Translations under genes and position numbers: made by a program | Assembly (NCBI GenBank): GCA_023512255.1 | Contig: JAILZY010000028.1 | Span: 1 to 41,498 of the forward strand | Source: a bacterium | GTDB taxonomy: Bacteria; SZUA-182; DTGQ01 | Reading direction: 5' to 3' | Length of the DNA: 41,498 bases | Notes under the pieces: generated by a model | Seen by the model: only the letters and a program-made list of their open reading frames with translations | Told to the model about the DNA's origin: nothing | The model's database searches: none | Shown here: one piece after another, positions 3,244-27,181 of the stretch | Layout of the letters: every line of letters starts with the position of its first letter | How positions within the stretch are numbered: position 1 is the first letter of the stretch

Positions 3244-3546
3244 ATGAAAATTTGTCATCATTGCCGAAAGTCTGTTGAGGTGGACAGAGTGGTCAGTAGA
3301 CTGGCCACCTGTCCACATTGTGAAAGCTACTTGCACTGCTGCCTAAACTGCGCTCTTTATTCCGAGCAAGCACCGAATAAGTGCCGGGAGCCGCAGAGCG
3401 AACATATTTCTGAACGGCAGGGGGCAAACTTTTGTGACTTTTTTATCTTCGCTGAGAGCTCTGATCAAGGCAGTGATAAAAAGCCAAGCCAGCTCGATGA
3501 GGTCAGACGAAAATTTGATGCCTTGTTTAAGAAAAAGCCAGAGTGA
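3244..3546 (+). CDS. Small Cys-rich putative zinc-binding protein, 100 aa
   Basis: The first half carries CHHC (4-7), CPHC (23-26), a CCLNC cluster and later single cysteines, followed by KCREPQSE and NFCDFF. This spacing looks like a paired zinc ribbon. I recognise the pattern from short unnamed proteins of many bacteria that share NQCREPQAE and NFCDFF-like stretches, but I know no established function. The C-terminal third is charged and probably helical. GAGGAG at 3227-3232 lies 11 nt before the start. It follows polA closely and may be co-transcribed. Its last 82 bp overlap the 3' end of the oppositely oriented cytochrome gene. Confidence 0.8.
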   Translation: MKICHHCRKSVEVDRVVSRLATCPHCESYLHCCLNCALYSEQAPNKCREPQSEHISERQGANFCDFFIFAESSDQGSDKKPSQLDEVRRKFDALFKKKPE

Positions 3547-4241
3547 GGATTTTCTTCTCCTTTCCCCTCTCCCTTCGGAAGATTAGCATGATGACAGAGG
3601 CTGCAATTCGTAGACGCGATATTCTGCTCCTTGTGACAGAGAAAGCAAGAGCGTTTCATCGTCGGACGAAATGAACCCTGGCTATGACCTACATCTCTAT
3701 GACAGGGCATGCAGGGTGATATGGTTCCAATCTTTTTCATAATTTGGATATGTCGGACGTGATCCAAGGCAATGGTTCGGCTCAGCCCCTGCTGCTGCTG
3801 GCTATGGTTGTCGATCCTGTCTATGTTATGGCACCCTGATCGGGTACAGGTTAAGGGAGCTACTGGCGTTGCTGTCTTAGCTAATTCTGCTGCTTCTGCT
3901 ACTCTTGATTGCGATTGAGTGAGATTAGACTCACAATTTCCTTCCGACAAAAAAGATGGGAGCCTAATATCGAACTTCATTAGATGAGAGAAAATTGTCT
4001 CGATTTGACCTTGAAGGAACCCTACTGAGCCAGGACGAGAATGACATAGCATACAGGCAGTGGGTTGTGAATTGCTCTGGCTGTGCTTTGATTTTCTCCA
4101 GGTAGCAGCAATATTAGACGTTTCATGGCAGCGCAGACAAAACCAGGTGGTAGAAGAAATTTTCATTCCAATCAGAACCACTATGCTCATTAAGCAAAAA
4201 CTTGTAGCGGCAAAGATCAGCAGTTTTCTCAGCGTTCTCAT
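3465..4241 (-). CDS. Membrane-anchored hexahaem cytochrome c (NapC/NirT-like)
   Basis: Probable periplasmic electron carrier anchored by one N-terminal membrane helix (about 6-27). From the chosen start it is 258 residues with five CXXCH sites (35-39, 63-67, 177-181, 199-203, 213-217) and one wider CX4CH site (132-138), so up to six haems. The single anchor and first haem pair resemble NapC/NirT quinol dehydrogenases, but the spacing is not canonical. I chose the ATG at 4241, with GGAGG 13 nt upstream; a GTG at 4283 would add 14 residues but lacks a well-placed site. It follows the Rieske gene on the same strand, which suggests electron transfer from a Rieske centre. The 3' end runs 82 bp into the opposing Cys-rich gene. 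Confidence 0.85.
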   Translation of the reverse strand: MRTLRKLLIFAATSFCLMSIVVLIGMKISSTTWFCLRCHETSNIAATWRKSKHSQSNSQPTACMLCHSRPGSVGFLQGQIETIFSHLMKFDIRLPSFLSEGNCESNLTQSQSRVAEAAELAKTATPVAPLTCTRSGCHNIDRIDNHSQQQQGLSRTIALDHVRHIQIMKKIGTISPCMPCHRDVGHSQGSFRPTMKRSCFLCHKEQNIASTNCSLCHHANLPKGEGKGEENPHSGFFLNKASNFRLTSSSWLGFLSLP

Positions 4242-4348
4242 ACTACGGGCATTTCCTCCATCAAGAAATAAGAGCCGCTTCACTTCTTATTTTATTCAGC
4301 TATATTTATATTCAGATTTTTCCAATCCAGTGGCTAGCCAGCTTGGGG

Positions 4349-4831
4349 TTAAGTATTTCCAATGAGTATCTTATTATTATCCATATCAATGGTAGCCTTA
4401 ACTATGTTAAGGGGTTTTGGGGCCGGGCCGGATTTTACATTTCCATTCAGGTCATACTTTGCACCGTGACATGGGCATACAATTTCCTGGCTCTTATCGT
4501 CCCACTGAACGATGCATCCTAGGTGAGTGCAGACAGCCGAAAGAGCGAAAATGCCATCAGTTGTCCGGATAACAATGGTTGGAGTTTCTCGATAATTGAT
4601 GATCTTTGATTTCCCTACGGCTATCTCGGCTGCATCGACCTCGACGATACCCGAATTCTTGGTGGATCGCTTGCTGGGGGGAATTAGATATCTGACAAGT
4701 GGATAGAGGAGCGAGCCAGCTGACACTCCCAAAATTCCTTTGGTTAAAAAATCCAAGAATATCCTTCGGGTAATTCCCAAATGGAATCTGCGCCTCTTTA
4801 ATGATTCTCCTTCCGCCTTAGCTAGTTCCAT
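4349..4831 (-). CDS. Rieske [2Fe-2S] protein of a quinol:cytochrome c oxidoreductase type
   Basis: High-potential Rieske protein. CTHLGC (101-106) and CPCHG (119-123) supply the two Cys/His ligand pairs and the disulfide cysteines. The N-terminus has a twin-arginine-like signal anchor (TRRIFLDFL, 21-29, then a hydrophobic helix to about 50), as is usual for Rieske subunits exported by Tat and left membrane-tethered. Start choice: ATG at 4831 with GGAG 12 nt upstream; GTG at 4849 would add six residues without a site. The hexahaem cytochrome follows after about 100 bp. In a bc1 or b6f-type operon a cytochrome b gene would be expected beside it, but none is present here. A short mobile element ends 49 bp upstream and may affect expression. 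Confidence 0.92.
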   Translation of the reverse strand: MELAKAEGESLKRRRFHLGITRRIFLDFLTKGILGVSAGSLLYPLVRYLIPPSKRSTKNSGIVEVDAAEIAVGKSKIINYRETPTIVIRTTDGIFALSAVCTHLGCIVQWDDKSQEIVCPCHGAKYDLNGNVKSGPAPKPLNIVKATIDMDNNKILIGNT

Positions 4832-4879
4832 AGTAGTGGTAAACTCCACGATAAAAATCTTAAGTCAAACGGTATTAAG

Positions 4880-12659: not shown

Positions 12660-13952
12660 CTATAGTCCACCGTTCTCATTCAGCTTGACCAAATAAAAAT
12701 TACTGCCCCCCTGGCCAAAAGAATCGGTGTATCCAGCTACAATATAGCCTCCATCTGAGGTCTGCTGTATAGAATATGCTTCCTCATCACTATCTCCCCC
12801 TACTGTTGTATCCCAAATTTTATCGCCGCTCCTATTCAGCTTGACCAAATAGAAATCTCTGCCTTGGCCAAAGGAATCGGTACATCCAGCTACAATATAC
12901 CCGTCATCTGAAGTCTGCCGAATGGCATAAGCCTCTTCGTAACTATCTCCTCCGAAATTTTTTCCCCAACTTATCGTGCCATTATCATTAACCATAGCTA
13001 TGTAAAAGTTGGTATTACCAGGAGGGGTAATTTCTATTTCTATGCATCCGGCCACAATATACCTGCCATCATGGGTCTGCTGGACAGCATTAGCTGCGTC
13101 AAAGCCGCTTCCCCCGAAGGTTATATCCCATTTTTTATTACCTTTTTCATCAAGTTTTACCAGGCAGCCATCAACATCCCATTCACCCTTACCGAGATAT
13201 CCGGCAATAATATAGCCACCATCAGAAGTCTGCTGGATAGCTTTAGCTTCATCATAATAATTCCCCCCAAAAGTCTTATGCCATTCCTCAGAGCCATTTT
13301 TATCAAGCTTGATTATGTACCAATCAGCATCATAGCTTTCATTTTCAACGTATCCAGCAATAACATACCCCCCATCAGAGGTTTGCCAAATGGAGTTGGC
13401 CACCTCATCACTATTCCCCCCAAAGGTTTTCCCCCACCTTTCATAGCCATTATTATCAAACTTTACAATGTAGATATCGCTAGACCCTGCTATCCCGAAA
13501 GAACTCGTATATCCGGCCACAATATACCCCCCGTCAGAGGTTTGCTGAATGGATCTGGCTTCCTCGAACCCGCTTCCTCCAAAGTTTTTTTTCCACTCTT
13601 CCTGCCCCCCCTTGGTAAGCTTTACTATATAGAGATCGAGATAGCCTGCTCCAAAAGAATCGCTATAGCCGGCTACAATATAGCCGTCATCAGAAGTCTG
13701 CACAACGGATTTGGCCACATCTTCGCCACTTCCTCCGAAAGTCATCTTCCAGGTACTCTTTCCCTCCAAAGTATCTTTGGGAGAACCGGGAGTATCTTTG
13801 GAAGAATCGGAGGCTTGAGGGCCGTTATTAGATGATCCCCCGCCACAACCAAAGAGGGAAAGAGATGAAATGCAACAAGTTAATAACAGGAAAAAGGTGA
13901 ACAATGAGAAATTAAGGATGGCCAATGACTTTTTTAAACTGCTGGTCTTCAT
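12660..13952 (-). CDS. Lipoprotein with a predicted seven-bladed beta-propeller
   Basis: A lipid signal peptide ends at C36 (SLFGCGGG). A Ser/Asp/Pro linker follows, then seven repeats of about 52-58 residues. Each has the pattern W-K-T-FGG, DEA-SIQQTSDGGYIVAGY, DSFG and D-Y-VKLD-NG. Seven such units suggest a closed propeller for binding or scaffolding at the cell surface. Similar repeat proteins are common in environmental bacteria and mostly have no known function. AGGAG stands 7 nt before the ATG at 13952. It is a separate leftward unit; the decayed CRISPR-like array begins 16 bp after its stop and would be on the same transcript. Confidence 0.88.
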   Translation of the reverse strand: MKTSSLKKSLAILNFSLFTFFLLLTCCISSLSLFGCGGGSSNNGPQASDSSKDTPGSPKDTLEGKSTWKMTFGGSGEDVAKSVVQTSDDGYIVAGYSDSFGAGYLDLYIVKLTKGGQEEWKKNFGGSGFEEARSIQQTSDGGYIVAGYTSSFGIAGSSDIYIVKFDNNGYERWGKTFGGNSDEVANSIWQTSDGGYVIAGYVENESYDADWYIIKLDKNGSEEWHKTFGGNYYDEAKAIQQTSDGGYIIAGYLGKGEWDVDGCLVKLDEKGNKKWDITFGGSGFDAANAVQQTHDGRYIVAGCIEIEITPPGNTNFYIAMVNDNGTISWGKNFGGDSYEEAYAIRQTSDDGYIVAGCTDSFGQGRDFYLVKLNRSGDKIWDTTVGGDSDEEAYSIQQTSDGGYIVAGYTDSFGQGGSNFYLVKLNENGGL

Positions 13953-14176: not shown

Positions 14177-15742
14177 TCATAAGGGATCCTGAGCCTCACG
14201 CTTAAAACTTTTCACTTCTATTTTGTAGTGCCTTTTCGCTTCTTCAAGCTTTTGATACATCCTTTGGGTCATCAGTTTAATCTTTATGGTGCTTTTTACC
14301 TCATCAAGCGGCTTAATCTCACCGCCTTTTTTATCCAGCAGACTTATGATCTCGTAACCATCTTCTGTTTTCACCACTCCGCTCACCTCGCCTTTCTCTA
14401 AAGCAAAAGCCGCTTTTTCAAAGGCGGAATCTTTTTCCCCTTTGCCAAACCAACCCGTTTCGCCGGCCTTCAAGTTCGAGGCCCGACTGGATTTTTTCGT
14501 GGCCAGCTTATGAAAAGAAGCCCCTCCTTTAAGCTCTCTTAGGATATTTTCAGCTTCCTCTCCCGTATTGGCGCAAATGTAACTAACCCTTATCTTGAGC
14601 GGCGCTCTAAACTCCTCAAGATGAGATTGGTAATAATCCTTTATCTCCTGATTGCTGATTTTAATTTTGTCGATAATAAAACGTCGGCGAAAGGCATTGG
14701 CAAGTATCTGCTCACTTTTTATTTTAAGCTCCAAGGCGACTTGCGGGTCATGCTCAAGGCCCACCTTCCTTGCTTCGCTGGCAAAGACCTCTCTCTCGAT
14801 CAAATATCTTGTCCATTTCTCTCTGAGCCTTTCCTTTTCCTTTTTCGAAGTCTCCCTGTCGACAATAGGAGCAATTTCTTTTTCGGTGATCGACTTGTTT
14901 CCAATCCAGGCCAATATTCCCACTTGTTGAGAAATCTTTACCTTCGCCTCCTGGTAGTATCTATTAACAAGCTCATCTTTTCTTTTTGCAAATGACAGGG
15001 AGTATATATTCTTTTTGGCTTCTTCAAAGGATATATGTTGACTCTCTCTTTTATCCAGTATCCTGACAATTTGGTAGTTTTTCCCCGTTGGGATGATTTC
15101 GCTGATTTTCCCTTTCTCCAAGGCATAAATAGTTTTTTCCAGTTCAGGCTCTATCTTGCCTTTTGATAGCCACCCATGCTTTCCGCCCTTCTTCCAGCAG
15201 CGGCAAATGGAATTTCGCTTGGCCACCTCTTCGAAAGAGATTCCTTCCTGCAGTAGCTTCATTACCTCTTGGGCCTGCTTGGCCCTTTTAACCACTATGT
15301 GACTCATCAATATCCCTTCAGGGATAACAAAGGCGTCCTTGTGTTCCTGATAATATCTTTCGATCTTCTCTTCAGCAGGAGTTGCCTGTTGGTCAATGTA
15401 TTTCTTGACGAAATATCGGGCTAAAATTTCACTTTTCGTCCTTTCTATTTCCTTCCTTATCTCCCGATCATTTTCCAGCCCTGCCTTCGTCGCCTCTCTG
15501 GATAAGACTTTCATCTCTATCAGGTCATTCATCAACCTATCATCCTTCAAAGCTAACCTATCCTTCAAAGCTTCGGGTATCGATTCCTTTACCACCCGTA
15601 AAGCCTCTTCCAATTCCTCCTCAGTGATCCGCTGATAATCTATTTTGGCTGTTACACTCTTATCCAGGCAACCAGCAACCAGCAGAATTAGCAAACCAAG
15701 TGCATACGAGAAGGTTCTCCACCTGGTTACTGACACCTTCAT
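14177..15742 (-). CDS. Lipoprotein peptidyl-prolyl isomerase with two parvulin domains (SurA/PrsA-like)
   Basis: Envelope folding chaperone of 521 residues. A lipid signal peptide ends at C25 (LILLVAGCLDK). A SurA-like helical region is followed by a parvulin domain (about 143-233: LMSHIVVKRA, GGKHGWLSKG, YALEKGKISEII). A second helical linker and second parvulin domain follow (about 381-472: RVSYICANTG, AGETGWFGKG, FALEKGEVSGVV). Both domains keep the G-W-G-G and ALEKGEIS core. SurA has the same double-parvulin plan; lipidation is more like PrsA. It is last in the leftward redox block, so it probably helps fold the exported cytochrome or oxidoreductase. AGGAAAGG lies about 12 nt before the ATG. 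Confidence 0.92.
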   Translation of the reverse strand: MKVSVTRWRTFSYALGLLILLVAGCLDKSVTAKIDYQRITEEELEEALRVVKESIPEALKDRLALKDDRLMNDLIEMKVLSREATKAGLENDREIRKEIERTKSEILARYFVKKYIDQQATPAEEKIERYYQEHKDAFVIPEGILMSHIVVKRAKQAQEVMKLLQEGISFEEVAKRNSICRCWKKGGKHGWLSKGKIEPELEKTIYALEKGKISEIIPTGKNYQIVRILDKRESQHISFEEAKKNIYSLSFAKRKDELVNRYYQEAKVKISQQVGILAWIGNKSITEKEIAPIVDRETSKKEKERLREKWTRYLIEREVFASEARKVGLEHDPQVALELKIKSEQILANAFRRRFIIDKIKISNQEIKDYYQSHLEEFRAPLKIRVSYICANTGEEAENILRELKGGASFHKLATKKSSRASNLKAGETGWFGKGEKDSAFEKAAFALEKGEVSGVVKTEDGYEIISLLDKKGGEIKPLDEVKSTIKIKLMTQRMYQKLEEAKRHYKIEVKSFKREAQDPL

Positions 15743-15869
15743 TACTATTTCATTCCTTTCCTCTAAGGAGATTGACTTTAAAGCACGAGGGACAAGAGAA
15801 GCAGACTTTTAGTCTGCTTCTCTATCCCCCAAACTGTCATTGGCTAAGAAGTATCAGGCCATTCATTCT

Positions 15870-17855
15870 CTACCGGACCCTTACTCTTACATAGTTGCTT
15901 TTGACCTTATTCTTCTCAATCCATAAATATTTGACTCCTTGATAGCCGGAAGGTATAGCGGCTTTAAATTTTATTGCCGTGTTGCTCCAGCTCCTTACCT
16001 GGCTTTGCAAAATACCCTTGCCCAGATCAGGGTCCTGCGCTTCCGATTCTGAGCCGATGCGCACTTCTCCTCCGCTTCTGCTGGTACCGAAATTAAGCCC
16101 GTATATCATGATCAGTCCATTGTCTTTGATCCAGACAGGTGACACTTTGTAAACAATGGGACTCTTACTCAGCTCAAAATATACCGGATCGGCTGCTATC
16201 ACCTGGAAAATCGTATCCTCGCTGTCATAAGTTCCATTGCCGTTATTGTCGCCGAAATAGATGGCTTTAACGTAAACGGCCCATTTACCCGAAGCCAGTC
16301 CTTCGGGTTTTAAGACAGTTGCTTCACCGGGGTCGAGGACAAAGTTGCGGCTACCGGTTGAAGGATCTACGCTATCGGTAAAGAAATCGTAAAATCTTAC
16401 TTCAAAGGAGGAATCCGTCCAGCTTCGATAATTGAGAGCCGTATAGGTACCTTGTGAGGCGACAAAATCGACAACGCGGTAGACACCATGATAGCCATCG
16501 CTGAATATCTCTGTTTGATTAGCGCCAAAATTGACGCCTAAGATCCGAATCCAGGTACCGCATGGCCCAGAAGAGGGTTCTGTTTTAAGGGGAGGAGGAT
16601 AGTCTTCCAGAGTGAAGACTCTCTCATTACTTTCACCTGTCGGCGTTACGACCTTTATCTTGTAATTCGCTTTCGGAAGGAGCGTCCAGCAGGGAATTTC
16701 AAACTCAATGAGTGTATCCGCCCAGGAATAGATAGGCATATCGATCCACTCAGAGGAATATTGAGACTCAACCAATAGCTTTACGCTATATCCTCTTAAA
16801 TGTTCTTCTCCAAAATGTTGCCCTCGCAGGGTCACGATAGCTCCGCAAGCACTATGGGCAGGCTGAATACCTGTTTCATCCAGCTCAATTTCAGGCGACA
16901 AGGCTGGAGGAACGGGAGCTTCAGCAATAATAACATATCCATGGCATCCGAAGCACTGTTCATTGGCCGAAAACCCCCGGTAGCGAACTGGATTGACATC
17001 CGAAGGATCGCTGTTGCCTCCTACGTGAAAACCTGCTGCCTCCCAGCCATTGGTATTATCGACATGGGGACTAATGCTATGGATGCTTTCTATGCTATGG
17101 CAAACCTCGCAGTAGCGAATGAGCAGAGGATTAGAAGGATTCCAGGAGGGATTGTAAGGATCCTGAGCATGGCATCGATAACACTCGGAGGCTACATTAC
17201 CTACAAACCCCATGTGATGGGTATCCATGTTCCCATAAATTTTCTTTCCATACTCATAAAACCCTATGTTTTGACCCTGGCAGTCGAGATGGTCAAATGT
17301 CGATGGGTGGCCGGGATTTTGAGGATCTCCCGTAGTCGAAACCTCTTGCTTCCAGTGGCAATTATCGCACGAGAATGGAGTGGGAGTTACGATCGAGGGC
17401 GGATAGAGGCTGGAGTCCCGCAAGGGATTAATTTCGGCGATCAGGTTCGGACTATGGCACGTAACACAGTTTGCCGAGCCTGACATATCGGTATTATGGT
17501 GCCAGCCATTGGTGAGAAGATCATCCTCACTCGCGCTATGGCAACCACTGGTCGTGCAGTTCCTTTCGACAACTATTCCCCCGGGAATCTTCCTCGGATG
17601 GCAGCGAATACAATTGCGGTCGGCAATTACCGTTGGAGTGGCATGATGCCTGTCAGCCAAGCTGTTACCATGACAGCTTCGGCAGTCATTTTGGGATAAC
17701 TCACTATAAATCGTATCATAAATACCAATTTCCTGTGGCACGTAATCCATGGATGGCTTAGGACGATTATAGTCCTCTAATGCCAAAAGGATGCTCCGGC
17801 TACAGAAAATAATGAGTATCATTACTGCTAACCCTAAAAACCTTTTCCTACTCAT
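15870..17855 (-). CDS. Exported octahaem cytochrome c with C-terminal IPT/TIG domains
   Basis: Secreted or envelope electron-transfer protein, 661 residues. An N-terminal hydrophobic signal (MSRKRFLGLAVMILII) is followed by seven CXXCH sites (58, 82, 130, 163, 225, 249, 301) and one CX4CH (100-106), all within residues 58-305. The remaining 350 residues form about three IPT/TIG immunoglobulin-like domains, marked by VTLRGQHFG, IRILGVNFG and IMIYGLNFG. IPT domains are common in extracellular proteins, so a surface location is plausible. Start: ATG at 17855, 7 nt after AAGGAG; a GTG at 17903 would add 16 residues but has no signal. It follows the TorD-type chaperone gene and the Mo enzyme, so it may carry their electrons. 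Confidence 0.9.
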   Translation of the reverse strand: MSRKRFLGLAVMILIIFCSRSILLALEDYNRPKPSMDYVPQEIGIYDTIYSELSQNDCRSCHGNSLADRHHATPTVIADRNCIRCHPRKIPGGIVVERNCTTSGCHSASEDDLLTNGWHHNTDMSGSANCVTCHSPNLIAEINPLRDSSLYPPSIVTPTPFSCDNCHWKQEVSTTGDPQNPGHPSTFDHLDCQGQNIGFYEYGKKIYGNMDTHHMGFVGNVASECYRCHAQDPYNPSWNPSNPLLIRYCEVCHSIESIHSISPHVDNTNGWEAAGFHVGGNSDPSDVNPVRYRGFSANEQCFGCHGYVIIAEAPVPPALSPEIELDETGIQPAHSACGAIVTLRGQHFGEEHLRGYSVKLLVESQYSSEWIDMPIYSWADTLIEFEIPCWTLLPKANYKIKVVTPTGESNERVFTLEDYPPPLKTEPSSGPCGTWIRILGVNFGANQTEIFSDGYHGVYRVVDFVASQGTYTALNYRSWTDSSFEVRFYDFFTDSVDPSTGSRNFVLDPGEATVLKPEGLASGKWAVYVKAIYFGDNNGNGTYDSEDTIFQVIAADPVYFELSKSPIVYKVSPVWIKDNGLIMIYGLNFGTSRSGGEVRIGSESEAQDPDLGKGILQSQVRSWSNTAIKFKAAIPSGYQGVKYLWIEKNKVKSNYVRVRVR

Positions 17856-17903
17856 AACCTTTCTCCTTAGTAACCTAATAATACCTAGTCTCTTGTTTAG
17901 CAC

Positions 17904-18623
17904 CTAGGTCAAAGAGGATTTGCACGTCAGCCTTTCAGCTTCCGAATGCAAAAATGCTTTGGTCACATAACTGAATTCACGGTAAAAAACGGACTTGCTG
18001 CCGGAGGATATTACCTTGTCAAGGAATAGAGGTGCCCATTTCGTCAGATGATTCAGAAGAAATCTCTCCCGAATAGACGACATTTTAGATGCCCGTTCCA
18101 TGTCAAGGGTGCTTTTTCCTTCTCCCGCACTCATCCCCCTGGCCTTTAGCTCTTCCCATATCAGGTACCATACGAATTCAGCTTCAGCGGCGAAATGGTC
18201 AGGAATATCCTTGAACCCCTCCGATACCTTGAGACCGGCTTCCATATAGAGCTTTACCGCTTCCCTCGTGGTATCCCCCCAGACCATCCCCTCACTTTCC
18301 AGATATAGGGATCCGTAAGGCGGGGCCGGTACCTTAGGTCGGGCGGTAATGAAAAGAGCCGTATATTCCTTTTTAAGCTCAAGCCACGCCTCCTCTTTGG
18401 TATGCTTTTGCCTCCATTGCCTTATCCTCTCAAAATGCTCCGAAGGCTCAATTCCTGATAAGCGATACAGAGGAAGATGCCTTTCCATCTCTCCGCTATC
18501 CAAAAGAGTCAGCAGCTCTTCCTCCGGGTAGTAAAAACAGCGGGTAATATCAGCATAAACTACCATCCCGGCTGCCAGATGCTGCTCATACTCTTCAAGA
18601 ACTTGATCATCTGTCATGCACAT
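17904..18623 (-). CDS. TorD/DmsD-family chaperone for the molybdoenzyme
   Basis: Cytoplasmic chaperone, 239 residues, mostly helical, with the family hallmark YTALFITARPKVPAPPYGSL followed by a GFKDIPDHFAAEAEFVWYLI stretch (the E-P-D-H-E-L-like signature). Such proteins bind the Tat signal of Mo oxidoreductases and hold export until cofactor is inserted. The gene starts 2 nt after the stop of the molybdoenzyme gene, with GGAAGG 8 nt before the ATG inside that gene's end. This is a tight translational coupling that identifies its client. Confidence 0.9.
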   Translation of the reverse strand: MCMTDDQVLEEYEQHLAAGMVVYADITRCFYYPEEELLTLLDSGEMERHLPLYRLSGIEPSEHFERIRQWRQKHTKEEAWLELKKEYTALFITARPKVPAPPYGSLYLESEGMVWGDTTREAVKLYMEAGLKVSEGFKDIPDHFAAEAEFVWYLIWEELKARGMSAGEGKSTLDMERASKMSSIRERFLLNHLTKWAPLFLDKVISSGSKSVFYREFSYVTKAFLHSEAERLTCKSSLT

Positions 18624-18625
18624 AA

Positions 18626-20965
18626 CTAAGCCTTCCCCAGTATCCTGATAACCGTATCCAGGATAGCACTGCCCATGGCCGCATTGTAGGGATAGCGCCT
18701 CAAAGACTCCGATACAGTACTCTCAGGCAATAAGTCGCCATCATTGATCCCTTTGTTAAAGGCCACTCTCAGATTCCTATTGAAATGACCATAACCATGC
18801 TCGGTCATGACCGTATCCGGCCTTATCCCCTTAATTACCTTGACTCTTATCTTTAAGGTCTTGCCTGTCGGCGAGGAAATCCAGGCATAGTCACCCGTTT
18901 TTAATCCGAACATGGCTGCGGCGTCAGGATGTATATAAAGCAGATTCTCCGGCTGCAGGTCCATGATCAGGTAATCGTTGCGGTTCTTGTTCATCCTGTG
19001 GTAGGGAGTGTGATTGGTGACCACGTAAAATTCATCCGCAGCGCTTCGTTCGGTCAGTTTGGGATGCCAGACAGGCATGGGCTCATGGCCGTCTTGTGCC
19101 AACCTTTGAGAGTATAACTCTATCTTTTTGGATGGCGTGCCAAGGTTGGCCAGGTTTTGGGGTATGGGCGGATATACTTTATTTTCCCAGATGCCGTTAT
19201 GCGCTCTCAGCCAGGCTACCGGATCTTCGGTCGGGCCGAGGCCGATCACGTTCCGCATCCTTTGCAGGTTCAGGGTCCCCCAATCGATATCGAATTGCCC
19301 TGGCCACAGCTTATTCAGAATGCCGTTCACCATAGCGCTAAAGCCCTTCCTGTCCCACAGAGCGCCCACACCATCTCTGAGATACATTCGATTCCACAGG
19401 GAGTGCTGATCGGTTGTGCCAAAATTATTCTTTATTTCCACCCACCACGTCTCCGGCAGAACCACATCGGCCAGCCACCCGATATTACTAGGGATGGTAT
19501 CGATAACGACTAGAAAGATATCCGGATTACACAGCTCGGCAACAAGGGTATCGGGATTGGGGAAGCTGTGAGAGTCGTAACTATGGGAAATTATTACCTT
19601 GACTGGGTAGGAGGGTGTTCCGTCGGGGAATGGCTCTCCTAATCTTGCTCTTCTCAGGCCATCGGCTAGATGGCTGAAGTTTCCTTTGCTCTTTTTCCCT
19701 CCGCCAATGGCCTTGGTCACAGAGGGAAATAGATGCTGCCCATCAACCCTTATGTTTCCATCCTTTGGCGGATAATTAACCTTGCTCGGAGCAAAGGCCG
19801 CAAGCGAAGGCGGAGTAGCCGGCATGCGGGGGATCCAAAAACCACCGACCCGTTCAAAGGCTCCAACCAGGGCATTGAGGATAATCTGCGCCTGACAGAA
19901 AGAGAAGCTGTTGGCATAGAGAGGACCGCCTACATCCCTCTTATAGGCAGGGGAAAGCGGTCGCTCCGAAGCAGCGAATTCACGGGCAATCCGCCTGATA
20001 TCATCCGCCGGAATGCCGCAGATGCTCTCGGCCCACTCAGGGGTATATCCCTGACTGTTGACATGAGCCGCCAACTCGTCAAAACCATAGCAATAGCTTG
20101 ACACATAAGCGGCATTGTAGAGATTCTCGTTGATGATTACCTGGATCATGGCCAGGACCACCGCCAGGTCGGTTCCCGGTTTAATGGCAAACCACTCATC
20201 AGCCATATTGGCCGTAACCGAAAGCCTGGGATCAAAGACCACAATCTTGGCACCTTTTCCCCTAGCCGCCAGGAAGCCATTCAATTGGGCCATCTTCGAC
20301 TTGCCCGGCATATCGTAACCAAAGCAGAGAAGATAGGTAGCCTCTTCGAGCTCAAGCGTTCTGCTCTTGTTTACGCCAAGGGTCGCCCACCAGGCTACAT
20401 CGTGGGTAATGTAGCAGGTATCCACATGGCACACCTGATTGGGCGTTCCGATGGCATCGACAAAATGCATCGGGACCTCTGTGGGTCGCAGCAGACCTAA
20501 AACAAATCTTGGCCCCACAGTGTCGATTGCATTCCGGATCCTTTCGGCAATCAGAGTGAAGGCCTCATCCCAGCTAATAGCCACCCAGCCCGGGTCTTCA
20601 TCCTTGCCCTTATTCAGGTTAGTCCTCTTAAGCGGCTTTTTCAGCAAGTCAGGATCGTAGAGATTGCGCATGGCTGACTGCCCCTTGACACAGATTTTCC
20701 CCTGGCCGCCGCTGCTGAGCTCATCAGCTGGATTTCCACTTATCTCTTTAACTACCCCGTCTACCAGCTTGAGGATCACTCCACAGTTGTTGTCGCAGGT
20801 GCCGCACATGCTGTATTTGAACTCGGTCGGCAGATAATAAGCGTATGCCTCGCCGCCTTGCAAGATATTAAAAGCTTTCATGGTATGGCTGAGCAGAGGG
20901 GATACGGTGATGGAAAGCCCCCCTATTCCTGCCCACTTTAAAAAATCACGTCTTCTAATAGCCAT
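18626..20965 (-). CDS. Tat-exported molybdopterin oxidoreductase, PsrA/PhsA/ArrA-like catalytic subunit
   Basis: Catalytic subunit of the DMSO-reductase superfamily, 779 residues. The twin-arginine signal is MAIRRRDFLKW. An N-terminal [4Fe-4S] site uses C54, C57, C61 and C92. C184 (in HVDTCYITHDV) aligns with the Cys that ligates Mo or W in polysulfide, thiosulfate and arsenate reductases. The C-terminal pterin-binding part has NHTPYHRMNKNRND and LLYIHPDAAAMFGLKTGDYA. Length fits PsrA/PhsA better than ArrA or TtrA, but sequence alone does not fix the substrate (polysulfide, thiosulfate, arsenic or selenium oxyanions). It is coupled to its chaperone gene and has an Fe-S partner upstream; no NrfD-type membrane subunit is present. 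Start: ATG 20965 after GAAAGGG. Confidence 0.93.
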   Translation of the reverse strand: MAIRRRDFLKWAGIGGLSITVSPLLSHTMKAFNILQGGEAYAYYLPTEFKYSMCGTCDNNCGVILKLVDGVVKEISGNPADELSSGGQGKICVKGQSAMRNLYDPDLLKKPLKRTNLNKGKDEDPGWVAISWDEAFTLIAERIRNAIDTVGPRFVLGLLRPTEVPMHFVDAIGTPNQVCHVDTCYITHDVAWWATLGVNKSRTLELEEATYLLCFGYDMPGKSKMAQLNGFLAARGKGAKIVVFDPRLSVTANMADEWFAIKPGTDLAVVLAMIQVIINENLYNAAYVSSYCYGFDELAAHVNSQGYTPEWAESICGIPADDIRRIAREFAASERPLSPAYKRDVGGPLYANSFSFCQAQIILNALVGAFERVGGFWIPRMPATPPSLAAFAPSKVNYPPKDGNIRVDGQHLFPSVTKAIGGGKKSKGNFSHLADGLRRARLGEPFPDGTPSYPVKVIISHSYDSHSFPNPDTLVAELCNPDIFLVVIDTIPSNIGWLADVVLPETWWVEIKNNFGTTDQHSLWNRMYLRDGVGALWDRKGFSAMVNGILNKLWPGQFDIDWGTLNLQRMRNVIGLGPTEDPVAWLRAHNGIWENKVYPPIPQNLANLGTPSKKIELYSQRLAQDGHEPMPVWHPKLTERSAADEFYVVTNHTPYHRMNKNRNDYLIMDLQPENLLYIHPDAAAMFGLKTGDYAWISSPTGKTLKIRVKVIKGIRPDTVMTEHGYGHFNRNLRVAFNKGINDGDLLPESTVSESLRRYPYNAAMGSAILDTVIRILGKA

Positions 20966-21186
20966 GATTAATACCCTTTCTCAAAATATTTACAGTCATT
21001 TGAGCAGTCGCGAAGACTTCCCAGCGCGCTCTTGTCAGGCTGACTGACTTAAAAATTTACATGTTAAGCAAAAATCACTTCCGCCTCCCATGCCTTGATA
21101 TGCTGAAGAAGAAACTCCGCGGATACTCAATTACTTGACTGATTTCAATCTCTTCCAAAAACCTTCATCAAAACTGAACACTCTTC

Positions 21187-21855
21187 CTACCTGCCGATCA
21201 AAAGGCTATAAGCGCTGAGACTCTCGGTGAGTATCCAGAGCACTGACGTATTCCCACACGGCCCATTCTGGCCAGGATAAAGACGAGCGTTCGGATATTT
21301 GGGTAATAAATCATTCAATCTCTCATAAGCCTTCTGAACCATCACACTATAGTCTCCAAAGGAGATAGCTCCGGTTGGACATGCATCCGCACAGGCAGTT
21401 GCTCTCCCGCTGCCATCGCTTATCCTGTTAAAGCAGAGCGTGCACTTTCTCATCTTACCAAGTTCCTGATTGAACTTTGGAACCTGGTATATGCAGGCCC
21501 TTTCGCAAGGCCGGGTACGGCACCTACTGGGATTGCATTTGTTTCCCATAATGACTACGGCGCCCGTCGGTTTTATCTCAATAGCTTTGAGTGGGCATAC
21601 TTTTGCACAAATAGGGTATTGGCAGTGCCTGCACTGATCCTTGAAAAACAGCAGGCTTATCTTTCCACTACCATTCTGGTGCTCATAGTCTTTCACCACC
21701 GTGTATCTAGTGCCAGTGAGCCTGGGCGGCAAATCACATCTTCCCTCCTGCATGCCCGGCTCGGCCGGAAGATCATTCCACACTTTACAGGCTACCTGGC
21801 AAGCCCGGCAAGATATACATAACGAGCTATCAATCAATAATACCTTTCTGGCCAC
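21187..21855 (-). CDS. Four-cluster ferredoxin-like electron-transfer subunit
   Basis: Beta subunit for the adjacent molybdoenzyme, 222 residues. Sixteen cysteines fall in four groups for four [4Fe-4S] clusters: C13/16/19/23, C75/78/83/87, C107/112/117/121 and C138/141/155/159. The layout matches the PsrB/DmsB/FdnH family, and the segment around LTGTRYTVVKDYEHQNG resembles formate dehydrogenase beta subunits. There is no membrane helix or export signal, so it would travel with the Tat-exported partner. It starts with GTG at 21855; AAGGAG lies 7 nt upstream and sits in a 14-bp perfect tandem duplication (21859-21886), so a second copy of the site lies further up. The molybdoenzyme gene follows after a 221-bp gap. 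Confidence 0.92.
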   Translation of the reverse strand: MARKVLLIDSSLCISCRACQVACKVWNDLPAEPGMQEGRCDLPPRLTGTRYTVVKDYEHQNGSGKISLLFFKDQCRHCQYPICAKVCPLKAIEIKPTGAVVIMGNKCNPSRCRTRPCERACIYQVPKFNQELGKMRKCTLCFNRISDGSGRATACADACPTGAISFGDYSVMVQKAYERLNDLLPKYPNARLYPGQNGPCGNTSVLWILTESLSAYSLLIGR

Positions 21856-22025: not shown

Positions 22026-22586
22026 TCACTTCGTCTGGGGCCTCCGTGAGTATAGAAATTTGTTGAAAATTGTACTTATATGAAGGGAATTGATGAAACA
22101 ACCATTTTCGGAATTAAAAGGTCCTCTTAAAGATGGATCATTAGAAGATGGATCATTATTCGATGAGTCACTGCCTGGAGGATAATTATCCGAAGGACCG
22201 CTATCATCCTTCACGACTATCACTTTGAAAGTGCAGGTGCTGAAGTTGCCAGATGAGTCAATTGCAGTTACCTCAACCTCTGTTGTTCCCAGCGGAAATT
22301 GCGAACCTGGCTCATAGCTGTAAGTCAGCTGAGGAGCAGGGTCTGTGGCATCGATGACTTTCGCCTCATAAAAGACCTCGATTTGGCTGTTTGTAGTTGA
22401 GACGACCTTATCGCCAGGGCATATAATTACCGGCGGATCAGTGTCGTCAAGATAAGGATTGGGTGGGGGAGAAGTAGTGGGTGTGCCGAAGGCATAGAGA
22501 TAGCCATCACAACTTCCGATGTAAATCGTGCCATCCCTCCCTATGGCAGGAGAGGAAAAAACCGCCCCCCGGTCTGGTAATTCCAT
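22026..22586 (-). CDS. C-terminal part of the propeller/HYR protein (frameshifted continuation)
   Basis: This frame picks up where the upstream propeller frame breaks. It begins with the rest of a blade (VFSSPAIGRDGTIYIGS, DGYLYAFGT). It then has a linker and a HYR (hyalin repeat) domain (PPVIICPGDK through GTTEVEVTAIDSSGNFSTC and FKVIVV), and ends in a low-complexity Ser/Asn/Pro tail that includes a 14-bp duplicated DNA segment. The nominal ATG lies inside the previous blade and has no ribosome binding site, so it is not an independent gene. One extra base in the G6 or T6 run at 22556-22570 would fuse it to 22541-23542. Confidence 0.75.
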   Translation of the reverse strand: MELPDRGAVFSSPAIGRDGTIYIGSCDGYLYAFGTPTTSPPPNPYLDDTDPPVIICPGDKVVSTTNSQIEVFYEAKVIDATDPAPQLTYSYEPGSQFPLGTTEVEVTAIDSSGNFSTCTFKVIVVKDDSGPSDNYPPGSDSSNNDPSSNDPSLRGPFNSENGCFINSLHISTIFNKFLYSRRPQTK

Positions 22587-23542
22587 TTCAGGTTGCCATC
22601 CGAATCAAGGGCATAGATGTTGTTATCCCAGCTTCCAATATAGACCGTGCCATCTGCGCCAATAGCCGGTGAGGAATCGATGCTGTCTTCTGCCAGGTAA
22701 CTCCATTTTAAGTTGCCATCTGCATCAAGGGCGTAGATCTTGCCGTCCCTGCTTCCGATGTAGATCGTGCCATCTGCACCAATAGCCGGTGAGGAGTAGC
22801 AGATACTGTCGCCGGTTTGATAACTCCATTTCAGATTACCAGCGGGGTCAAGTGCGTAGACTTTGCCATCCCAGCTTCCAATATAGATCGTGCCATCTGC
22901 GCCAATAGCCGGTGAGGAGTAATAGATACTTCCTTCTTCTGTTTGGTAACTCCATTTCAAGCTGCCATTTGGGTTTAGGGCGTAGATTCTGCCGCTTTCA
23001 CTTCCAAAATAAACAGTGTTATCGGTGCCGATAGCCGGTGAGGAGTAAATGCTGCTCTCTATCTCGTAACTCCATTTCAAAGTGCCGGTTGGATTTAAAG
23101 CATAGAGCTTACCATTATAACCTGCAATATAGACCGTGCCGTCTGCGCCTATGGTCGGTGAGGAATCAATCCAATTATCGATCGAATAGCTCCATCTTAC
23201 GGTCTTGTCCGGGTTAAGGGCGTAAACCTTGGCATAAAAACCTTCACCCTGACTATTGTCGTGGCTGGCGAAATACACTGTGCCGTCTGCGCCTATGGCT
23301 GGTGAGGAAAAAATCCAATCCCCGGCTGAGTATTTCCACTTTAACGTATTATTTTGTGCTCCCGTATATTGACTTTGACCAGTATGCTTTGAATCGTGCC
23401 CCTTGCACGGCCAGTCACTGTTGGCCAGCCCCCCTTTTTCGGCAGCATTTGTCCACCAGCAAGATGCCCACCCCGCTATTAGGATTATGAAAAAAAGAAC
23501 CCGCAGTAATTCAACCAGGACATTAAAACTCTGTCTCCTCAT
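22541..23542 (-). CDS. PQQ-type beta-propeller lipoprotein, N-terminal part of a frameshifted gene
   Basis: An exported protein. The N-terminal hydrophobic stretch ends WASC (C28), a possible lipid attachment. Six to seven repeats of about 37 residues follow, of the type GNLKWSYQT, SSPAIGADGTIYIGS, DGKIYALD. This is the PQQ-like or YncE-type propeller pattern. The frame is lost at YQTGG, just where the next blade continues in the frame of 22026-22586. The joined protein would be about 500 residues with a C-terminal HYR domain. Start: ATG 23542, 9 nt after GAGGAG; an earlier in-frame ATG touches the site. Upstream are a candidate sigma-54 promoter and paired inverted repeats. Confidence 0.82.
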   Translation of the reverse strand: MRRQSFNVLVELLRVLFFIILIAGWASCWWTNAAEKGGLANSDWPCKGHDSKHTGQSQYTGAQNNTLKWKYSAGDWIFSSPAIGADGTVYFASHDNSQGEGFYAKVYALNPDKTVRWSYSIDNWIDSSPTIGADGTVYIAGYNGKLYALNPTGTLKWSYEIESSIYSSPAIGTDNTVYFGSESGRIYALNPNGSLKWSYQTEEGSIYYSSPAIGADGTIYIGSWDGKVYALDPAGNLKWSYQTGDSICYSSPAIGADGTIYIGSRDGKIYALDADGNLKWSYLAEDSIDSSPAIGADGTVYIGSWDNNIYALDSDGNLKWNYQTGGRFFPLLP

Positions 23543-23695
23543 TAACCGCATCTCCTCAGTCTATCCCTTCATTTGATCTTTTCCAAAAGTACCGAATTCT
23601 CAATTCCTCGACGATAAGGCAACTCTCCTCACAAACATAACAGAAACATAACAGGGATAATCTTCCTCGAGAAGAAGAAGTTTGGAAAAAAGGAA

Positions 23696-24266: not shown

Positions 24267-24334
24267 AAGCTCAGTTAATAGCCAGGCTGGTTTAAGCTCG
24301 GTTAATGGCCAGGCTGGTTTAGCCAGGCTGGTTT
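24267..24334. repeat. Two and a half tandem copies of a 27-bp unit
   Basis: Copies at 24267-24293 and 24294-24320 (25 of 27 identical) and a 14-bp partial copy at 24321-24334 share GCCAGGCTGGTTT. The last copy reaches the stop codon of the activator gene. This is the longest unit among the window's tandem duplications. Confidence 0.8.
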
Positions 24335-26150
24335 ATAAAGTGAAGAGGAGGCACAGGCTACGCAGTTTTTTGCTCAAACCGTATTTTTTCATTTTCCGCC
24401 ATAAGGTAGGCCTGCTGATATCCAGCTTTTGCATAACTGCCTTCAGATTCCAGTCGCATTCCTCCAGGATACTGAGGAGAACTTCTTTATCGATTTGGTC
24501 TCTCGAGAGACCCTCCATCATCCCAACCTTGATAACCTGATCGACCTGTGGATTAAGAAGATCTTGAGGAAGATGTCTGGGTTGTATAGTAAGTCCCTTA
24601 CATTTGACAAAGGCATGTTCAATAAGATGCTCTAATTCCCTGATATTTCCCGGCCAGGAATGCCGAAAAAGAATCCTCATGGCTTCTCTTGACAGGCCGG
24701 TAATTTTTTTACCTGTCTTCTGGTTGAATTTCTCAATAAAATGCATTGCCAGAAGAGGAAGGTCATCTATTCTCTCCCTGAGAGGAGGTAGTTTTATTTC
24801 TACTACCTTTAGGCGGTAATAAAGATCTTCACGGAATCTTCCGCGGGCTACTTCCTCTTTGACGTCCTTATTGGTAGCGGCAATAATCCGTACATCTACC
24901 TTGATTGTTTTTTCACCGCCAACCTTCTCAAATTCCCGCTCCTGGAGCACCCGCAACAGTTTAGTCTGAAGGTTGAGGCTCATATCTGCAATCTCGTCCA
25001 AAAATAGCGTCCCGCCATTAGCCAGCTCAAACCGCCCGGTTTTATCCTTGATAGCGCCGGTAAAGGCTCCTTTTACATGTCCGAACAGTTCACTTTCCAA
25101 AAGATTTTCAGAAAGCACGGAGCAGCTGACCCCAATAAAGGGTTTTGAAGCCAGTAATCCCTGGTAGTGGATAGCGCGGGCGACTAGTTCCTTGCCGGTT
25201 CCGCTCTCGCCCTGGATGAGAACGGTAGCTTTACTCTGAGATACATCTTTAATCGTCTCGTAAATCTCCTGCATTTTCGGGTTTCTGCCAATGATTTCTC
25301 CACAACGGAATTTCCTGGTTAAAGGACTCAGTCGGAGTTTTTCTAACTTGAGCAATTGATCTTCGAGCCTCTTCCTTTTAGTAATATCCCGATAAATTCC
25401 CATGATCTGCTTTTCCTGGCTATCCTGACTTATTATTTCCGACTCGTTTGCCTCCAGTAAAATAATACCACCATGTTTCGTCTTACATTCGAGCAGATGA
25501 GGCTCCAAGTATCTTTGCAAATCTTCCTGGTCCTGAATCTGTTTACGCCATGGATCATTAATTGGATTTTCAGTGAGGAATTGTCGAAAGGGTTTAAAGC
25601 AAACCTCGTCCACTTGATACCCCATAATTTTTTCAATAGATTCACTTACGAATAAAATGGTGCCCTGCAGGTCTTGCACCAGAATCAAATCACGCGAATG
25701 AGAAACCAGGGTACAATATTTTTTTTCCGAAATCAGCAGCTTTTGTTCCAACTCCTTTTCCTTGGTAATATCCCTGACGATCTCTACTATAGCTTTTTTT
25801 TGATTATCTCGTATCAAGGGGGCAGCCTTGATTTCAAACAACCGGCCTTTAAAAGTATTTTGACAATGAATAATATTTTGCCCTTGAGATGAGTTTTCAA
25901 TATCCAATAAGGGACAAAAAGTGCAAGGCTGATTATGGCCGCATAAAAACTTGAAACACTGATTTCCGATTTGATCTTCAAAGTATGATATAGCTGTCTG
26001 ATTCATAAACTCAATTATATGCTCATCATTGATGACCAGCACAGCATCAGCCATACTGTGGAACAGGTTATAAAGATTATCTCTTTCCTGTTTGATCTTC
26101 TCTTCAAGTTTTAGCTTGTTCATCAAAAAGGTGGTCTGTGCTTCGAGCAA
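24333..26150 (-). CDS. PAS-PAS-AAA+-HTH sigma-54 activator (cytoplasmic part)
   Basis: Enhancer-binding activator of RpoN. It has two PAS domains (about 25-130 and 140-260), then an AAA+ domain with Walker A GESGTGKE (314-321), the sigma-54 contact loop GAFTGA (361-366) and Walker B LFLDEI (382-387). A C-terminal Fis-type helix-turn-helix follows ([20 protein letters not shown]). The first PAS has four cysteines at 65, 70, 76 and 79 ending in PCTFCP, a pattern that could hold a metal or redox group. The nominal TTG start has no ribosome binding site. The same frame extends upstream ([18 protein letters not shown]) into the sensor frame, which is one base out of phase. The two therefore form one membrane-bound regulator. 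Confidence 0.9.
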
Positions 26151-26160
26151 GTTTTTCTTC

Positions 26161-27168
26161 TTATTGGCTTGATGAAAGAGAGATCCCCCCAGAAAAAAAA
26201 ATGCTCAGAAGAATGAAAATAAGGAGTAAAATATTTCGGGTATTATCCCTGATCGGATTGTAAAGAGAAGTATAGGGTGTAGTTATTCCGATTAACCATT
26301 TTGTTGAGTCGAGCACAAGAGGCGTGAAAGCGTAAAGCTCCTGATCTTTACCCCAAAAAGGATAAATGCCAAAGGCTTCTTTTCCATCCCTCAAGTCTTG
26401 GCAAGGGCTCTTTTGGCTCTTGGCTTTTCTATATCTTCTCTGCGATTGTGCCTTTTCTATAATATCCCAGTAATTTTTTAAAAGTAAAGAAGAGTCAGGA
26501 TGATAAACAATCAACCCTTTTTGATTAATTATCCATACGCTGCTTTCCGTTTGCATGCCAAGCTTTTCTGACTCAAGAAAGGGCAAAAAGAAGTCGGTGA
26601 ACGTATCCATATGGATAATACAGCACAATACACCGATAACTTTCCTTTTATCCGCTCCTTCTAGTGGAAAAATAGGATAGCTCATGAGTATGACATAATC
26701 CTTCGATTTAGTAAAAAAGCAATTACTGATACTAGGTTTACCATTTCGAAAAACCTGCTTTATACATGGCATATCATTCAATATCTTATCCACTTCATGC
26801 TCAACAATAGGATAGATATATTCAACCCTCCCATTTTGATCAATCTTACAGATGGAATTTATCTTATCACTGAAAAGGCGGTAAAAATCCTGAAATAATT
26901 TGGCATAAGCTTTCGGCTTTTCCTGCTGCAAATCCTTTTCAGCGCTCAAGTGGGTGATTTCTTTATCTAAATCTTTCATACTCCGCTGGATAGCGATTGC
27001 CACAGTTCTAACGAGATTAAGCTGATCAGTATGGAACGATTGGATTATGGTCTTCGGAAAGCTTTTAATTATCTTAAGAAAGAGCAGAATGGCTATGAAA
27101 AACAGAACGATGAAGACGGCTATAATCAGGAGCGGTCCCTTTTTCCTGGGTATCAGCAACTTGTTCAT
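26161..27168 (-). CDS. dCache-type sensor domain with two membrane helices, N-terminal part of the split activator
   Basis: An N-terminal helix (about 13-35) anchors a 270-residue periplasmic region. That region has features of a double Cache ligand sensor: WIINQKGLIVYHPDSSLL, a preceding C-rich loop, and YAFTPLVLDSTKWLIGITTP. A second helix (NILLLIFILLSIFF) follows. The frame is lost at a run of nine T (coding strand; plus 26193-26201). Dropping one T continues as SIFFLGGSLFHQANKKKN straight into the PAS-AAA gene. Start: ATG at 27168 (third codon of the open frame) with GAGG 9 nt before it. This would detect an external ligand and activate sigma-54 promoters. Confidence 0.8.
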   Translation of the reverse strand: MNKLLIPRKKGPLLIIAVFIVLFFIAILLFLKIIKSFPKTIIQSFHTDQLNLVRTVAIAIQRSMKDLDKEITHLSAEKDLQQEKPKAYAKLFQDFYRLFSDKINSICKIDQNGRVEYIYPIVEHEVDKILNDMPCIKQVFRNGKPSISNCFFTKSKDYVILMSYPIFPLEGADKRKVIGVLCCIIHMDTFTDFFLPFLESEKLGMQTESSVWIINQKGLIVYHPDSSLLLKNYWDIIEKAQSQRRYRKAKSQKSPCQDLRDGKEAFGIYPFWGKDQELYAFTPLVLDSTKWLIGITTPYTSLYNPIRDNTRNILLLIFILLSIFFSGGISLSSSQ

Positions 27169-27181
27169 ATTCAAAAGCCTC

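Follow-up and report, generated by a model that had tools for sequence, protein, structure and literature searches.

With which partner does an exported molybdenum (Mo) oxidoreductase exchange electrons when no membrane subunit is encoded beside it? The question is raised by a group of genes in the window, i.e. the entire stretch of 41,498 nt analysed here, which comes from a MAG of 172 contigs. The original prediction placed five genes on one strand, encoding an Fe-S protein, a Tat-exported Mo oxidoreductase, a chaperone, an octahaem cytochrome and a double parvulin, and proposed that the cytochrome takes the place of a membrane quinol subunit. All five open reading frames are confirmed, on the minus strand and in this order, and domain searches agree with the naming. 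The features of the cassette, including a lipoprotein gene that ends it, are as follows:

21187..21855, minus strand: Fe-S electron-transfer subunit with four [4Fe-4S] clusters, formate dehydrogenase beta type, lacking the C-terminal membrane helix (Fer4_11)
18626..20965, minus strand: Mo/W-bisPGD catalytic subunit, PhsA/PsrA-like, 779 aa (Tat signal RRRDFLK, 4Fe-4S cysteines)
17904..18623, minus strand: TorD/DmsD-type Tat-proofreading chaperone (PF02613, 2.4e-23; TIGR03482, 3.3e-15)
15870..17855, minus strand: OmcZ-family octahaem cytochrome precursor with signal peptide, 8 haems, Pro-rich linker and C-terminal IPT/Ig domains (OmcZ homology)
14177..15742, minus strand: double-parvulin (SurA_N and two PpiC) peptidyl-prolyl isomerase lipoprotein (domain searches; lipobox VAGC)
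12660..13952, minus strand: DUF5122 beta-propeller lipoprotein, last gene of the conserved cassette (domain search)

The cytochrome open reading frame as called (15870–17903) begins at an upstream GTG; the most likely start is the ATG at 17855, preceded by an AGGAG site. Two bases separate the Mo and TorD genes, and 48 bases the TorD and cytochrome genes. The Tat motif is present on the Mo subunit, and neither an NrfD nor a cytochrome b gene is found within the cassette or beside it, as expected if the cytochrome replaces the membrane subunit of an exported enzyme. The single NrfD gene of the genome is at another location (L026), where it is paired with its own Fe-S gene. Promoter and terminator scans gave scores no better than those of shuffled sequences, and no Rfam elements were found in the window.

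Other genes of the window may be described briefly. A PQQ/BamB-type beta-propeller gene (22026–23551, minus strand) is split into two overlapping open reading frames in different frames (22541–23551 and 22026–22586), as in a frameshift, and the second part carries an HYR domain. Beyond it in the upstream direction, also on the minus strand, a PAS-domain sigma-54 activator (24333–26150) adjoins a dCache sensor protein (26161–27174); this pair (24333–27174) might regulate the cassette. A NapC/NirT-type multihaem cytochrome (3465–4283) and, after it, a Rieske protein bearing a PetC-type anchor are encoded about 10 kb away from the cassette (3465–4849, minus strand), and these two are likely to form a quinol-to-cytochrome complex.

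The cytochrome and its OmcZ relatives

The cytochrome displays seven CXXCH motifs and one CX4CH motif, i.e. eight haem sites, together with IPT/TIG domains. In this the description as an octahaem IPT cytochrome was correct, but the protein is not an anonymous one: OmcZ is a known homologue of its haem region. An hmmsearch of all PDB chains with a profile built from the cytochromes of three cassettes (two are described below) gave OmcZ as the sole credible match: 8d9m, a Geobacter OmcZ entry, at 1.4e-9, and 7lq5 at 2.1e-9, with the next chain at 0.12. The 7lq5 structure is that of Geobacter OmcZ (PMC11208441). A whole-genome search with the cassette profile also yielded, at locus L058 of another lineage, a protein that is beyond doubt an OmcZ (8d9m match at 2.9e-157). 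It is colinear with the window cytochrome; the alignment begins at the signal peptide, extends to the first IPT domain and has a BLASTP E-value of 5e-22.

All 16 haem cysteines (16/16) are invariant in 23 family sequences. Exactly 16 histidines are invariant as well (positions 78, 86, 87, 102, 122, 135, 136, 150, 183, 229, 230, 245, 269, 275, 293 and 321), eight of them within the haem motifs and eight elsewhere (86, 87, 135, 136, 229, 230, 275 and 293); the haem region of the window cytochrome has a total of only 19 histidines. The number of invariant histidines is that required for bis-histidine ligation of eight haems, the ligation described for OmcZ (PMC9473688). OmcZ precursors have tandem C-terminal Ig domains that are cut off by the OzpA protease (PMC9473688), and the IPT domains of the window cytochrome correspond to these. 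Each protein has a non-canonical haem motif, CX4CH at haem 3 here and CX14CH at haem 2 in OmcZ. On sequence evidence, the homology of the cytochrome to OmcZ, which forms the nanowires of Geobacter, extends over the full length; polymerisation is a separate matter. Membership of this family agrees with the earlier view that it is a cytochrome of the surface or extracellular kind. An MtrC/MtrF-like domain had been considered (Pfam E-value = 1.7e-4, below the cut-off), and is superseded by the OmcZ identity.

Structure prediction from a three-sequence alignment gave a pLDDT of 36.6. With 23 sequences the IPT/Ig beta-sandwiches have values of 70–93 and the haem region about 37; a fold search on this model bears on the Ig-like domains alone, not on the haems. 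One match (27% identity; TM 0.84, normalised by target length) is to 8co1_A2, a ~95-residue domain of a type II secretion system whose structure has been solved. This match is probably due to the last IPT domain (15870–16200 of the window, minus strand) and could be a hint of a secretion route.

A second, degenerate OmcZ-like gene is present in a congener (L009:16434–17639, minus strand), ~6 kb from the intact OmcZ-like gene. It has kept haem motifs 1–3 and the C-terminal domains and has lost haems 4–8, and it adjoins large multihaem cytochromes with up to 15 CXXCH motifs.

The OmcZ cluster is composed of OmcZ, a protease and an isomerase (PMC11208441), and omcZ/ozpA operons are widespread (PMC9473688). 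Among 21 OmcZ loci of another lineage, an OzpA-type subtilisin is found at 16 and an isomerase at 16, with both at 13. In the present genus a prolyl isomerase adjoins the cytochrome in each of the three cassettes, in the form of the double parvulin, and no OzpA-type subtilisin is adjacent to the cytochrome in any of them; the genome of the window has seven subtilisins, all outside the cassettes. Since OmcZ clusters normally contain an isomerase (PMC11208441; 16/21 loci), the suggestion that the double parvulin is a folding or maturation partner of the cytochrome is plausible. Across 386 broadly sampled genomes, close matches to the OmcZ profile were confined to this genus and the genome of L058, and there was one further, weak match.

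Sister cassettes and the enzyme subunits

A second locus in the same genome (L008) and one in a congener (L009) display the cytochrome, the double parvulin, the Fe-S subunit and the beta-propeller lipoprotein in the same order. Amino acid identities to the window proteins at L008 and L009 are 62% and 60% for the cytochrome, 49% and 50% for the parvulin, and 41% and 39% for the Fe-S subunit. The catalytic slot is different: a selenocysteine formate dehydrogenase (FDH) and an FdhE-type chaperone replace the PhsA/PsrA-like Mo protein and TorD. The FDH gene has an in-frame TGA (motif DHQARL(U)HSSTV); with the TGA read as selenocysteine, the L008 protein scores 889.4 bits with the FDH-N alpha equivalog TIGR01553 and passes its cut-off of 814.2. 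Genes for tRNA-Sec are found in both genomes. The FDH-N gamma cytochrome b and the C-terminal helix of the beta subunit are absent from both loci.

Because of this substitution, the five genes grouped in the original prediction are rejected as one conserved unit. The genes themselves are real; the set that is conserved, however, takes in the propeller lipoprotein (12660–13952), and Mo and TorD are variable. Because the cytochrome, parvulin, Fe-S and propeller genes recur with a different enzyme, the Mo–TorD pair can be seen as the variable head of a conserved chassis. The base for this recurrence is three full cassettes in two genomes of one genus, with the PhsA-like head seen once. Full-length matches to the double parvulin occur solely beside the three OmcZ-like cytochromes, and the propeller lipoprotein is found only at the two cassettes in the genome of the window, with one extra copy in the congener. 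None of the 21 OmcZ loci of the other lineage has a Mo oxidoreductase or its Fe-S subunit (0/21). No operon of OmcZ with a formate dehydrogenase or Mo oxidoreductase was found in the literature searched, an absence that is weak evidence. The sister copies with an FDH in the same socket suggest exchangeable enzymes plugged into extracellular electron transfer.

The best PDB match of the window Mo subunit is Thermus polysulfide/thiosulfate reductase A (3.8e-82). The N-terminal 4Fe-4S cysteines are at positions 54, 57, 61 and 92, and Cys184 aligns with PsrA Cys173, the Mo ligand. The subunit does not pass the PhsA equivalog model PRK15488 (348.7 bits, cut-off 694). Within the order, the genes of its nearest PhsA-like relatives (identities of 40% and 35%) are accompanied by those for TorD, a b561-type cytochrome b and an Fe-S protein anchored by a membrane helix at its C-terminus, an arrangement seen at L019–L021; a more distant relative is encoded with NrfD. 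The original prediction named an NrfD/PsrC gene conserved with the Mo subunit elsewhere as evidence against itself, and for the Mo gene this is found in part, since the nearest relatives have cytochrome b561 or, in one case, NrfD.

At 51% identity, the protein encoded at L007:285–2995 is the Mo subunit's closest relative; its gene is on a 3-kb contig labelled Dehalococcoidia, directly after an ArsR-type regulator gene. An assignment of substrate was dropped, since the PhsA cut-off was failed and this short contig with its ArsR-like flank is too little to go by; a sulfur compound is the likeliest substrate for the PhsA-like enzyme. Rhodanese-like genes flank the PhsA-like relatives at L020, L021, L023 and L024, with none at the window, and may be read as hints of sulfur substrates. 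The relatives at L020:8135–14610 and L021:5430–11594 share a conserved cluster of rhodanese-like, small TPR-like, PhsA-like Mo subunit, TorD, formylglycine-enzyme-like, Fe-S and cytochrome b561 genes; a formylglycine-enzyme-like gene within a Mo operon is odd.

Hydropathy analysis shows no membrane segment in the window Fe-S subunit, compared with one in conventional relatives. In a phylogenetic tree it is placed in the FDH-beta clade (98/95), apart from the Phs-type Fe-S proteins that accompany the relatives of the Mo subunit. With an FDH-beta type Fe-S subunit and a PhsA-like Mo subunit, the window operon is thus a hybrid. A first tree gave a special link between the Fe-S subunits of the window and the sister cassettes (98/93), which vanished once conventional FDH-beta proteins were added; it is therefore not claimed that the Fe-S gene arrived together with the cytochrome. 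Conventional FDHs of the same genus and order (L128, L130) have a cytochrome b as gamma subunit and a beta subunit with the C-terminal helix. Whichever head they carry, the OmcZ-linked cassettes lack both the membrane subunit and the anchor helix of the Fe-S subunit. Absence of NrfD by itself is not special, as ArrAB, Shewanella DmsAB and Desulfovibrio Fdh are likewise without it.

Proposed electron path and alternative explanations

The preferred explanation, with a probability of about two in three, is that a periplasmic Mo oxidoreductase has lost the membrane subunit that linked it to quinones and is connected instead to an octahaem cytochrome of the OmcZ family. The observations behind it are the gene content of the locus and its recurrence, the homology to OmcZ, and the disappearance of the membrane subunit as well as of the anchor helix on the Fe-S protein. 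The small number of cassettes, the lack of an adjacent OzpA-type subtilisin and the 220-bp gap between the Fe-S and Mo genes count against it, and enzyme and cytochrome could act separately though they share an operon. The PhsA/PsrA-like subunit would be assembled with the aid of TorD and exported by the Tat system together with the soluble four-cluster Fe-S subunit. The Fe-S chain would carry electrons between the enzyme and the octahaem cytochrome, in one direction or the other, in place of a direct exchange with quinones. The parvulin lipoprotein may aid folding or maturation of the cytochrome precursor, whose IPT domains would be cleaved off by a protease encoded elsewhere, and the processed cytochrome, perhaps polymeric, would take electrons across or beyond the outer membrane. 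The catalytic slot would be interchangeable, because the sister cassettes hold a selenocysteine FDH.

Flow from enzyme to cytochrome, as for formate, is favoured by a narrow balance over the reverse. The haem potentials of OmcZ are −420 to −60 mV (PMC9473688). This range suits electrons from formate. Sulfur compounds are thermodynamically workable within it in either direction. A stronger form of the proposal, in which the FDH and PhsA-like heads discharge directly into an OmcZ-type extracellular nanowire without a quinone step, from swappable positions on a conserved chassis of wire, isomerase and propeller, is tentative, and we would sooner bet against it than on it. The missing adjacent protease gene is the main argument against polymerisation of the cytochrome.

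A narrower version of the preferred explanation, which overlaps with it, is a serious contender, although it falls short of even odds. Here the OmcZ-like protein is domesticated: an unprocessed periplasmic monomer that serves the Mo and formate enzymes as a subunit or partner, as a cytochrome c subunit does in Desulfovibrio formate dehydrogenase, docks through its retained IPT domains, forms no filament, and passes electrons on to other periplasmic cytochromes. Absence of the protease gene from all three cassettes, the tight coupling of the cytochrome to periplasmic catalytic subunits and the displaced non-canonical motif (CX4CH at haem 3, against CX14CH at haem 2 of OmcZ) are consistent with it, and NapC-type and many other multihaem cytochromes are on hand as partners. 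However, the full precursor architecture of OmcZ and a dedicated isomerase are retained, all ligands are invariant, and the seven subtilisins encoded at other sites could be set against the missing protease.

Since the PhsA-like arrangement was seen once and a NapC/NirT-type cytochrome gene (3465–4283) is also in the window, the Mo–TorD pair might simply have been inserted beside an OmcZ operon; the enzyme would use NapC/NrfH-like or other cytochromes, and the OmcZ-like protein would serve general extracellular electron transfer. This is improbable in view of the independent catalytic type (FDH) in the equivalent place of two other cassettes, the loss of the Fe-S anchor with both head types, and spacings of just 2 and 48 bases between the Mo, TorD and cytochrome genes. 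An ordinary PsrABC/PhsABC reductase with its membrane subunit encoded elsewhere is more improbable still: the nearest catalytic relatives are indeed PhsA/PsrA types with b561-type or NrfD subunits and the genome has one NrfD gene, but this gene adjoins its own Fe-S gene (L026), and the window Fe-S subunit is of the FDH-beta type without an anchor helix. The original proposal of a new respiratory or extracellular electron-transfer system is reasonable as a hypothesis.

Comparison with known systems

Geobacter OmcZ forms filaments that conduct electricity. How electrons enter OmcZ-type filaments is an open question; in Geobacter, neither loading in the periplasm nor anchoring has been settled (PMC12307469). 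An OmcZ-type cytochrome and a defined periplasmic enzyme in one operon provide a specific candidate electron source, which is testable in vitro with formate. If the proposal is true, Mo enzymes can be rewired from quinones to extracellular cytochromes by replacement of the membrane subunit and trimming of the Fe-S anchor, and the two different catalytic heads would be independent cases of this rewiring.

The window catalytic subunit resembles those of PhsABC/PsrABC in fold family, position of the Cys ligand and TorD-type chaperone. It differs in scoring below the PhsA equivalog cut-off, in having no membrane subunit and in its FDH-type Fe-S partner. The sister cassettes are similar to FdnGHI and the Desulfovibrio periplasmic formate dehydrogenases in that their selenocysteine FDH alpha is above the FDH-N cut-off and the Fe-S subunits are of the FDH-beta type; unlike these, the cassettes have neither the cytochrome b gamma subunit nor the beta anchor helix, and the partner is an OmcZ-type cytochrome.

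In the Shewanella dmsEFABGH cluster (extracellular DMSO/iodate reductase), genes for Mo, Fe-S and chaperone proteins are likewise joined to a multihaem cytochrome, and a Mo enzyme is placed in an extracellular electron pathway (PMC11302344). That cluster, however, uses a porin-cytochrome pair (DmsEF, MtrAB-like) rather than an OmcZ-type protein, and has no isomerase.

The OmcZ cluster (omcZ, ozpA, prolyl isomerase; Geobacter GSU2076/GSU2075, ANME and Borgs) shares with the window a signal peptide and eight bis-histidine haem sites in the same order (PMC9473688, PMC11208441), the C-terminal Ig/IPT domains of the cytochrome and an adjacent isomerase gene. In the window, by contrast, there is no adjacent protease, the isomerase is doubled and lipidated, and the non-canonical motif is at haem 3. 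Unlike the 21 OmcZ loci examined, the window operon also encodes a Mo enzyme.
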